The notes under the pieces are model-generated. The model did not search any database and was not told where the DNA came from. It worked only from the letters and a program-made list of their open reading frames with translations. From positions 1-64,000 of the forward strand of contig JAFIGT010000015.1 of NCBI GenBank assembly GCA_017849585.1: a DNA stretch of 64,000 nt, in the 5' to 3' direction. A program made the position numbers and the translations under genes. This DNA is from Verrucomicrobium sp. Lineage in GTDB: Bacteria > Verrucomicrobiota > Verrucomicrobiia > Methylacidiphilales > UBA1321. Positions 18,155 to 51,358 of the stretch are shown in pieces (within the stretch, counting starts at the first letter, position 1; every line of letters starts with the position of its first letter).

Positions 18155-18940
18155 TTATGGCTTTTGGCCAACGGCTTGCGTGGGGCCCGGGCTGACGGCG
18201 AGGGGTGGCATTTCGATGCAAATCGCCCCGGTTAATATCGCCGCTTGGGCGGGGCGAAAACCGAGCGGCGCGCCGGGCAATTCGTAAACAAGGGGCAGCG
18301 CGTAGGTGCCGCGGGAATCGGTGAGGCGCGCGTTGCGGACCGGTTGGAAACGGAAGGTGTAACGGCCGCGTTCTTCGGCGCTATGGGCGGGGTCGAGAAT
18401 GACCGCGACGTTATCGCTATAAGTGAGCAGAGAGATGCAGTGGCCGAGTGATTCGGCGACGGAATACTCGCGGTCGCCGGTCTTTTTGACGTAGTCGATG
18501 CAAAGGATGAAGCCGACATTGTCCTGCCCGTTTTTCTCGAACCATTCCGGGCCGGAGAAGGCGGCTCCGCCGAAGCCGCGATAACTGACCTTCACATCGT
18601 TGTAGCCTTGCTCCTTGAAGAAATTACTCAGGCCGGTCGTCATGACCTCGAATTTGGTCCCCAGTCGGTAGGAGACATTGCAGTGGACGAGGAGCTTGGT
18701 GAAGAGGCGACGGTGGCGGTTCTCCCCGGTGACGGCGGCGGGGAGGAGGTTGGGGTAACCGTTTTCGCCGAACCAATAGATGATATTCGACGCGGCGGCG
18801 GGGAAGCAGGTGTTCTCTTCCTGATCGAGGTCGGGCATGGTGTACTTGCTGGCGGCGTGGAGAGCCGGAGATAACGAATAACTGCCGGTGAAAAGAACCG
18901 CCAGTACGACACCAACCCAAGCTGAATACCCCCGTCGCAT
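18155..18940 (-). CDS. secreted C39-like (papain-fold) cysteine protein
   Basis: The predicted exported protein has 261 residues when started at 18940. This start gives a signal peptide (RRGYSAWVGVVLAVLFTGSY, cut near HAA-SK). The mature N-terminus 'DQEENTCFPAAASNIIYWF' fits a C39/BtrH-like peptidase fold: oxyanion Gln, then catalytic Cys heading a helix. Candidate His is in SLGHCISLL, and candidate Asp is in VILDPAH. The reading frame extends to another ATG at 19135, but that extra N-terminus is derived from the repeated element at 18978-19209. Whether it is a protease or an inactive homologue is not clear; no export ABC transporter is adjacent. Confidence 0.6.
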   Translation of the reverse strand: MRRGYSAWVGVVLAVLFTGSYSLSPALHAASKYTMPDLDQEENTCFPAAASNIIYWFGENGYPNLLPAAVTGENRHRRLFTKLLVHCNVSYRLGTKFEVMTTGLSNFFKEQGYNDVKVSYRGFGGAAFSGPEWFEKNGQDNVGFILCIDYVKKTGDREYSVAESLGHCISLLTYSDNVAVILDPAHSAEERGRYTFRFQPVRNARLTDSRGTYALPLVYELPGAPLGFRPAQAAILTGAICIEMPPLAVSPGPTQAVGQKP

Positions 18941-18977: not shown

Positions 18978-19209
18978 CCCGGGCCGGATGGCGGTGACAA
19001 AAAAAGAGGATTGCGCTCCGAACATCTCCCAACGTCTCCACTTTCCTCTGGTTCCGAGGGCCGGGGCACTGCGCTGAAGGCCAGCGCGAGAAGCGCTGAT
19101 TTGAGATTGGAAATTTCAAAAGGGAGCCGGATCATGCGAGTATTTAAGCACAGATTGCGCCGCAGCGTTTGCGTTAGGTTTGCTACGTTGGCTACGTGTG
19201 CGACATTTT
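18978..19209 (-). repeat. 232-bp duplicated element, copy B
   Basis: Read on the minus strand, this stretch aligns without gaps to 49459-49690 on the plus strand. The shared blocks are TCGCACACG (19195-19203), ACCTAACGCAAACGCT (19164-19179), TGTGCTTAAAT (19142-19152), and a block starting AAGTGGAGACGTTGGGAGA that runs 19043-19013. An ATG at 19135 lies 17 bases after TGTGC, as in the other copy. The spacing of all blocks is identical in the two copies. It lies directly upstream of the C39-like gene and may carry its promoter. Confidence 0.7.
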
Positions 19210-49274: not shown

Positions 49275-49795
49275 TAGTTGTCCCCGTCTTATCCGTGTTC
49301 ATGACTCTACAACGTGATTCTCCCAGAGAATGAGTGGAATGCAGAGCGCCTGCCATACTGAGCGGACTCAGTTTCGGGGGCAAGAAAATGACGGATTAGA
49401 TTGGATGAACGAGGAGGAGGAGGGCTTATGCCGAGTGGAAATCGGTCGGTATGCCGCAAAAATATCGCACACGCAGCTCATATAGCTCACCTAACGCAAA
49501 CGCTCCGGGGCAGGGTGTGCTTAAATGGGGGCATGAACGGTCGGAAATTTCTCTACGGGCGGGATACCTTAGCACTTTGCGTGTGCGTGGGAAGGACTCG
49601 CCCAGAGTATCAGGCACTTGGGAAAAGTGGAGACGTTGGGAGACGTCCGGAGCGCGGTACGCGAAATTCGTCCCGCCCCGCCGGCCGCGTGACGCTGCAT
49701 CCAGTACTTAAAGGAACTAAGGCTCTTGGATCTACCGATTTCCGAAAGCGGCGGCACCGTGTGCCGCCAGCTACGGGGTGCAGGCTCAGCCCTGC
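49275..49795. other. intergenic region with a duplicated element and palindromes
   Basis: No protein gene is confidently present. The region holds copy A of the 232-bp element (49459-49690) and a double palindrome (49752-49797) next to the glyS stop. A weak reading frame runs through both, but its composition (many Arg, Gly, Pro) is that of non-coding GC-rich DNA. Confidence 0.5.
49459..49690 (+). repeat. 232-bp duplicated element, copy A
   Basis: This copy aligns ungapped with 18978-19209 (minus). The blocks are TCGCACACG at 49465, ACCTAACGCAAACGCT at 49489, TGTGCTTAAAT at 49516, an ATG at 49533, and AAGTGGAGACGTTGGGAGA at 49625, continuing with Y-GT-Y-CGGAGCGC. Between the ATG and the last block the two copies differ strongly but have the same length (94 bases). 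Both can encode a short frame with SGDVGR at codon 32. No gene follows copy A on this strand. Confidence 0.7.
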
Positions 49796-49797
49796 CT
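49752..49797. repeat. modular REP-like repeat (two palindromes)
   Basis: GGCGGCACCGTGTGCCGCC (49752-49770; 8-bp arms, CGT loop) is followed by the linker AGCTACGGGGTG and then CAGGCTCAGCCCTGCC. The reverse complement has the same order of modules as 58304-58347. It ends at the glyS stop codon and probably forms the end of the glyS transcript. Confidence 0.65.
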
Positions 49798-51358
49798 AGC
49801 GGATCTTCGGCGTGAGGTAGTGGGTGAGCTTCTCGATCGGGATGCGTTCCTGCTTCATCGAGTCGCGATGGCGCAGGGTGACGGTATCCTTTTGACCGGC
49901 GAACTCACCGTCCTTTGCGCCTTCGAGGGTCTCGAAGTCGATGGTGATGCCGAACGGTGTTCCGGCTTCGTCCATGCGACGGTAACGGCGGCCGATGGCT
50001 CCGGCTTCGTCGTAGAAGGTGGTCATGTAGGGACGCAGCAGCTCCTGCACGGCCTTGGCCTTGGCGACGAGTTCGGGCTTGTTCTTGAGCAGCGGGAAGA
50101 TGCCGACCTTGATCGGGGCCATGCGCGGGTGGAAACGCATGACGACGCGCGTTTCGCTGTTCCCCTTTTCGTCGGTGACGACTTCCTCATCGTACGCTTC
50201 GCAGAGGAGGGCGAGGATGGTGCGGTCGACGCCGGCGCTGGGCTCCACCACGTGGGGGAGGAACTTGGTCTTGGTCTCTTCGTCGAAGTATTCGAGCGGC
50301 TTGCCGCTGGCTTCGGCGTGTTGCTTCAGGTCATAGTCCGTACGGTAGGCGATGCCTTCGAGTTCCTGAATGCCGAAGGGGAATTCGTACTCGAGGTCAT
50401 AGGTGCCCTGCGAGTAGAACGCGCGGTCGGCTTCGGAGATGGTCTTGACGTGGATCTTGTCGCGGGGGATGCCGATCGCTTCGTACCAGGCGAGGCGGTC
50501 TTCCTTCCACTTTTCGAGCCACTCGAAACCGGCACCCGGCTTGACGAAAAATTCGACTTCCATTTGCTCGAATTCACGCGAGCGGAAGATGAAGTTGCGC
50601 GGGTTGATTTCGTTGCGGAACGACTTGCCGATCTGGGCAATGCCGAAGGGCAACTTCTTGCGCGCGACTTCGAGGACGTTCTTGAACTGGACGAACATCG
50701 CCTGCGCGGTTTCGGGGCGCAGATACGTGATGGCGGAGTCGTTTTCGACCGGGCCCACGTAGGTCTTGAACATCAGGTTGAACGTGCGCGGTTCGGAAAG
50801 CTGCGCGCCATTCTCCGGATTGAACGCTGTGGAGTCGGTGACCTTCTCGGTGCGGTCTTCAATCGGGTTGATGATCTTGTTCGATTCGAAGCCGGTGCCT
50901 TGGGCGTAGAATTCGCGGGCCACTTTTTTGGCCTTTTCCGAATGTTCACCCTCGCGGACGAGCACGGCAAAGGGTTTGTCGCTGGTCCAGCTCTTTTCCG
51001 GAGCTTCGGCGCCCTTGAACCAATGGACGGTGCCGGACTGGGGATCAATCTGGTCGGCGCGGAAACGCTTCTTGGTGACGAAGCATTCCACGAGCGGATC
51101 GGAGAAAGTGGCTTCGTGGCCGCTGGCGCGCCAGACGGCGCGGTTCATCAGAATGGAACCATCCATGCCCACGATATCATCGCGGTACTGGGTCATGCTC
51201 TTCCACCAGAAGTCCTTCAGGTTACGCTTCAAGTCGGCCCCGAGAGGACCGTAATCCCACGCTCCGTTGAGACCCCCGTAAATTTCCGAAGATTGAAAGA
51301 TGAAGCCGCGCCGTTTGCATAGGGCGACAATTTTTTCCATTTTGTCAGCGTCCGCCAT
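49796..51358 (-). CDS. glyS: glycyl-tRNA synthetase (dimeric type)
   Basis: This enzyme charges tRNA-Gly. The 520-residue class II synthetase is of the alpha2 type. It has the N-terminal CKRRGFIFQSSEIYGGLNGA segment, a motif 2 region IAQIGKSFRNEINPRNFIFR (about 237-256) and motif 3-like GVDRTILALL (about 378-387). A C-terminal anticodon-binding domain is present (PIKVGIFPLLKN; YRRMDEAGTPFGITID). Its length is typical for an alpha2 GlyRS, so no separate beta subunit is needed. A modular palindrome overlaps its 3' end. Confidence 0.97.
   Translation of the reverse strand: MADADKMEKIVALCKRRGFIFQSSEIYGGLNGAWDYGPLGADLKRNLKDFWWKSMTQYRDDIVGMDGSILMNRAVWRASGHEATFSDPLVECFVTKKRFRADQIDPQSGTVHWFKGAEAPEKSWTSDKPFAVLVREGEHSEKAKKVAREFYAQGTGFESNKIINPIEDRTEKVTDSTAFNPENGAQLSEPRTFNLMFKTYVGPVENDSAITYLRPETAQAMFVQFKNVLEVARKKLPFGIAQIGKSFRNEINPRNFIFRSREFEQMEVEFFVKPGAGFEWLEKWKEDRLAWYEAIGIPRDKIHVKTISEADRAFYSQGTYDLEYEFPFGIQELEGIAYRTDYDLKQHAEASGKPLEYFDEETKTKFLPHVVEPSAGVDRTILALLCEAYDEEVVTDEKGNSETRVVMRFHPRMAPIKVGIFPLLKNKPELVAKAKAVQELLRPYMTTFYDEAGAIGRRYRRMDEAGTPFGITIDFETLEGAKDGEFAGQKDTVTLRHRDSMKQERIPIEKLTHYLTPKIR

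Follow-up and report, generated by a model that had tools for sequence, protein, structure and literature searches.

Phage Mu late promoters and the lambda pR'-tR' unit exemplify activator-dependent promoters without a good -35 element, and late promoters behind which an early terminator stands. MITEs, like other dispersed repeats of bacteria, are short, multicopy and intergenic, and have no gene of their own. The control of some gene transfer agents (GTAs) has been described. GafY, IHF and GafZ govern the 14-kb GTA cluster of Caulobacter: a late-type promoter is opened by an activator, and GafZ, an anti-terminator, takes the polymerase past an early terminator (PMC11150451, in excerpt). In Rhodobacter, the activator GafA switches the capsid cluster together with separate loci for head spikes, tail fibres and lysis (PMC9638019, in excerpt).

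The window (the whole stretch of DNA analysed, 64,000 nucleotides) contains two copies of an element with a promoter-like layout, one on each strand (Table 1). The first-pass annotation had described positions 18978-19209 (minus strand) and 49459-49690 (plus strand) as aligning without a gap, and this is borne out on realignment. The conserved blocks are as first described, the ATG of both copies begins 17 bases after the start of TGTGC, and a hand count places SGDVGR at codons 32-37 in each. The gene context, however, had been swapped. It is the minus-strand copy (A) that leads into an open reading frame, for a secreted-looking protein without a Pfam or NCBIfam match, while the plus-strand copy (B) has no gene to lead into, the one that follows being convergent. 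The alignment, blocks, ATG and peptide of the original description thus stand, while its gene context, and the equal spacing as a property of the element (see below), do not.

Table 1. Features of the two cassette copies and of the adjacent genes in the window.
Feature	Position	Strand	Basis
Copy A, A-tract (5' edge of cassette)	19206..19209	-	read from sequence
Copy A, conserved array TCGCACACG..AGC..A..TAGC..ACCTAACGCAAAC, putative activator site	19167..19203	-	pattern match, 0 mismatches
Copy A, -10-like box TGTGCTTAAAT	19142..19152	-	
Copy A, near-fixed ATG (start codon in the family's phage-type genes)	19133..19135	-	
Copy A, T2 module	19016..19040	-	pattern match
Copy A, T-run (3' edge of cassette)	18999..19005	-	read from sequence
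Gene downstream of copy A, secreted-looking protein (start ~18940)	18155..18940	-	
Copy B, A-tract	49458..49462	+	read from sequence
Copy B, conserved array, putative activator site	49465..49501	+	pattern match, 0 mismatches
Copy B, -10-like box TGTGCTTAAAT	49516..49526	+	
Copy B, near-fixed ATG	49533..49535	+	
Copy B, T2 module, not followed by a run of five T	49628..49652	+	pattern match
Convergent gene after copy B, glycyl-tRNA synthetase-like (by eye)	49796..51358	-	

Copy B as a query finds 47 matches in its own genome (G000), and a pattern search for TCGCACACNNAGCNNANNTANCNNACCTAACGCAAAC that tolerates 3 mismatches at most finds 69 there and 80 in the closely related species Verrucomicrobia bacterium Tous-C9LFEB (G002), a reservoir MAG (PMC5673642, in excerpt). 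The pattern is absent from the other 38 genomes of the 40-genome sample, and its reversed form has 0 matches in the same genomes; at 69 matches against none, the recurrence of the element is far beyond chance. Ten more units in the own genome have a weaker promoter (L096, L097, L098, L099-L102 and L104-L106), and at L103 (G000:C19:14800-19800) the 5' half of a T2 cassette has been replaced by an IS-like insertion, giving a total of 80 units, the same number as in G002. The condition first named as refuting the observation, a recent duplication with no further copies, is therefore itself refuted: the two copies in the window belong to a set of about 80. Across 84,980 species, each represented by one genome (the own species possibly left out), an exact scan returned Tous-C9LFEB as the only named organism. 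The searches of viral contigs gave 0, 0 and 1 match, and the single one, to T1 (one of the two modules described below) in an AT-rich phage without the promoter, is taken as chance. No description of the cassette was found in the literature searched. In what follows, type and orientation counts refer to 77 of the 80 own units (leaving out L082 and L098, which begin with TT, and L103) and to all 80 of G002, while frame, T-run and ATG counts refer to 138 units (77 own and 61 of the 80 in G002).

The cassette is a discrete unit of about 200 bp, comprising an A-tract, a 42-bp array, a -10-like box, a near-fixed ATG, a module of class T1 or T2 and usually a T-run. Across the 138 units, the array after the A-tract reads T[AG]TCGCACAC followed by repeats in 9-bp steps, AGC..A..TAGC..ACCTAACGCAAACG. 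About 11 nt further on is the box (TGTGCTTAAAT, CTGCTAGAAC or CCGTGCTATAAC), which has no recognisable -35. The ATG is at its expected place in 129 of the 138, with its starting base at 68 or 69 in 117, and is separated from T1 or T2 by a variable stretch. Just after the ATG, the variable part of L012-L044 and other units contains a short AT-rich repeat of the GAAATCTCAAATCTGAAATTTGAAAT type, which is also found inside coding genes of the own genome. Searched by pattern, the own genome has 41 matches to T1 and 37 to T2, some of them weak, and none to the reversed patterns; by unit, T1 or T2 is present in 74/77 own and 70/80 G002 cassettes, and L108, L124 and L144 have T1/T2 hybrids. A T-run follows T1 in 69/71 cases and T2 in 32/58, compared with 44/2760 control windows. 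Copies at different loci have about 200 bp in common, at up to 93-94% identity, between unrelated flanks. This homology begins at about -10 to -6 relative to the TCGCACAC box, and its edges are sharp, at the A-tract and the T-run.

Gapless alignment of the window copies had been taken to suggest a short reading frame under selection, a structured RNA or a promoter module. Only the last is upheld, by about 80 copies with the same array and -10-like box, and by the presence of this box directly before phage-type genes for which the ATG at this position is the start codon. Equal spacing is a feature of the pair and not of the family: 33 of the 35 own T2 units have promoter-to-T2 distances between 127 and 196, the remaining two have 406 and 669, and the values are identical in 12 of 595 pairs. 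G002 has a separate counterpart for each of copies A and B (L117, L134), so the two were already distinct before the species split; in the counterpart of B the middle is 12 bases longer (175 vs 163), and that of A has GTG in place of ATG. The start is not constant, and T2, counted from the ATG, falls in every one of the three frames (7/11/15 units in G000, 3/10/7 in G002). T1 leans to frame 0 (44/70 units), which is ascribed to shared descent, although a frame signal may also underlie it. With modules read in all frames, a conserved peptide is ruled out as a general property, and the equal spacing and common SGDVGR frame of A and B are a coincidence. As to a structured RNA, only a tRNA reaches threshold when the window is compared with the Rfam covariance models, and folding of 26 T1 modules yields no consensus under default scoring and a weak one under ribosum scoring. 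Pairing between the T2 flanks, checked for co-variation in 35 and 23 units, is no better than with shuffled partners (z 0.5 in G000; shuffled pairs stronger in G002). If T1 and T2 do end transcription, the lack of a co-varying stem means that they do not do so as classical hairpins.

The same promoter and ATG (at L081) open a 14-kb operon for a large terminase (1.6e-24), a Mu-type portal, a Mu-type protease/scaffold and a major head protein. Only head genes are recognised within it, and T1 and T2 are both absent from the operon itself. The portal protein is present in 11 of the 12 genomes of the family, and the major head protein has 66-98% identity in 8 other family genomes. Vertical inheritance of a capsid and terminase operon across a bacterial group, as expected of a gene transfer agent, is thus seen here. 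The head-only Mu-like cluster at L147-L149 (G000:C12:92806-107364), of about 14 kb and with orthologous clusters across the bacterial family, is a candidate gene transfer agent in Verrucomicrobiota; in the literature searched, as far as its accessible text goes, no report of one in this phylum was found. The stretch before the first gene of the operon is the same box in G002, and in G001, the closest outgroup and of the same genus, it is a clearly related array with CTAGCTCAC repeats. It differs in four genomes of another genus, while in all six other genomes that were read an ATG closes a promoter-like stretch. The cassette promoter and ATG also begin a lysozyme-like gene (L040; Pfam Pesticin, below its cut-off), and in this gene the T2 motif is part of the reading frame in both G000 and G002. 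An outgroup homologue has the same length at this place and other residues, ruling out an origin of T2 as a relic of the lysozyme gene. Two solo genes under the cassette promoter and ATG, L076 (G000:C20) and L092 (G000:C26), have weak HTH matches, and their proteins are candidate module-specific regulators.

The cassettes usually point towards a gene. The next gene is co-directional for 68/77 own units (copy B is among the other 9) and for 63/78 G002 units with a call, the gene directions being called by a home-made codon score. Tandem sites in the own genome are ++ in 41 cases and -- in 4 (sign test, P 5e-9), a bias that could also stem from selection against antisense insertions. Core genes are frequent among the downstream genes, and 19 of the 77 were chosen by eye from the list before the family search. 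Their NCBIfam names, some of which (ClpX, the helicase) are below the curated cut-off, are ClpX, transketolase, aconitase, DnaG, MreB, glucose-6-phosphate isomerase, DapF, trigger factor, HisG, DnaA, RhlE-type helicase, GlpX, fumarase, PheT, GAPDH, RpoZ, TrpS, CoaD and LL-DAP aminotransferase. This link to core genes is not ancient, since G001 has the capsid operon without dispersed cassettes.

The best reading of the cassette promoters is that they are of the phage-late type, activator-dependent and with an early terminator, and co-regulated with the GTA-like capsid system. The copies would then be some 80 dispersed transcription cassettes in the regulon of a domesticated Mu-like, gene-transfer-agent-like capsid cluster, an explanation given a probability of roughly 0.4. 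As predicted from the DNA, a dedicated putative activator would bind the 42-bp repeat array and recruit RNA polymerase to the -10-like box, with transcription beginning at or near the ATG. Unmodified polymerase would stop 60-120 nt on, at T1 or T2 with its T-run, leaving a short RNA, while polymerase reading through would enter the co-directional gene behind the cassette and might thereby affect it. This two-step logic, an activator and then passage of an early terminator, is proposed by analogy with the Caulobacter GTA, which of the described systems comes closest.

A serious competitor, if a somewhat doubtful one, is a selfish MITE-like family, in which a non-autonomous 200-bp unit derived from capsid-regulon promoters has no host function and has spread by recombination or an unknown transposition, the orientation bias reflecting a purging of harmful antisense promoters. 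The sharp edges of copies so similar between unrelated flanks would fit such a family, as would its confinement to two close species, an independent burst of other repeats in G011, and the position of units at rearrangement and exchange points. On the other hand, T1 and T2 are intact in nearly all copies, T2 even inside the lysozyme-like reading frame, and neither target duplications nor inverted ends are seen. Over 108 units, flank matches are 3.78 vs 3.67 when shuffled (sd 0.09), on which a transposon was rejected, and inverted flank matches are 3.15 vs 3.11, with no terminal inverted repeats found. An empty site was sought at L110, L111 and L118 and none was seen; L111 and L118 coincide with rearrangement points, and a different inserted gene lies opposite L110. 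It also counts against selfish spread that 59 of the 80 G002 units keep the same downstream gene as in G000. These pairs have a median flank identity of 93.75% and equal module class in 53 of 59 cases, and the cassettes are less alike than their flanks (median 83%, with 15/59 below 75%). Under the best explanation, the cassettes multiplied in the ancestor of the two closely related species and later traded sequence among themselves. L118, L111, L138/L140 (vs L040) and L193 (vs L090/L018) sit where the two species differ by an inversion or exchange. The repeats of G011, a member of another genus, are roughly 350 bp long and near-identical, with at least five dispersed copies (L247, L252, L257, L261 and L265). 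They carry G011's own operon-type promoter motif (weak E-values; seen in alignment) and are a second, independent expansion.

Bolder, and improbable, is the idea that the cassettes are dispersed pac-like packaging or replication start sites, with T1 and T2 read by the capsid packaging machinery; sites spread over the chromosome would allow host DNA to be packaged from many points. One solo HTH gene has T1 overlapping its 3' end and the other is followed by T2, and one of the two HTH proteins is distantly similar to that of the gene just before the large terminase (E ~1e-3), but neither has a recognised terminase small-subunit match. The conserved hexamers of T1, T2 and the hybrid modules are 10 bp apart, as for binding one face of the DNA. 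Close neighbours are rarer among the units than expected at random (5 gaps of less than 10 kb vs 12.4, P 0.002), but over all units the spacing is no more even than by chance (P 0.14), and packaging sites would predict neither the promoter nor the co-directional gene. Least probable is a set of about 75 small regulatory RNAs that share a promoter and base-pair in trans: most units have a promoter, a short region predicted to be transcribed and a T-run, and a CCCAAC stretch in T1 is complementary to GUUGGG in T2, but there is no conserved RNA structure or Rfam family, the 5' part is variable and the cis orientation bias is strong.

If the cassettes belong to the regulon of the GTA-like capsid cluster, the promoter of a tamed phage has multiplied to about 80 places on the chromosome and almost always faces a host gene there, while the gene transfer agents of PMC11150451 and PMC9638019, in the excerpts used, switch a handful of loci. 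Such a case would allow a direct study of how regulation captured from a phage gains control of host physiology. An unlikely extension is that the late control of the tamed capsid system has been wired to the chromosome, with about 75 cassettes firing together before core genes (of replication, transcription, translation and central metabolism) and directly re-programming or shutting down the host from dozens of sites. A family-wide, Mu-derived capsid operon in Verrucomicrobiota is also indicated.

Like MITEs, the cassettes are short, multicopy and intergenic, without a gene of their own; unlike MITEs, they lack terminal inverted repeats and target duplications and have a conserved promoter and module layout. 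The Mu late promoters and lambda pR'-tR' are few and lie on a phage genome, whereas here there are 80 on a chromosome. The Rhodobacter GTA loci, as far as the excerpt describes them, are few and coding, while the cassettes are nearly all short and non-coding. In contrast to the Caulobacter GTA, as it appears in the excerpted account, the capsid genes are Mu-like, the host belongs to Verrucomicrobiota, the activator is putative, and about 75 extra cassettes occur without a phage gene.
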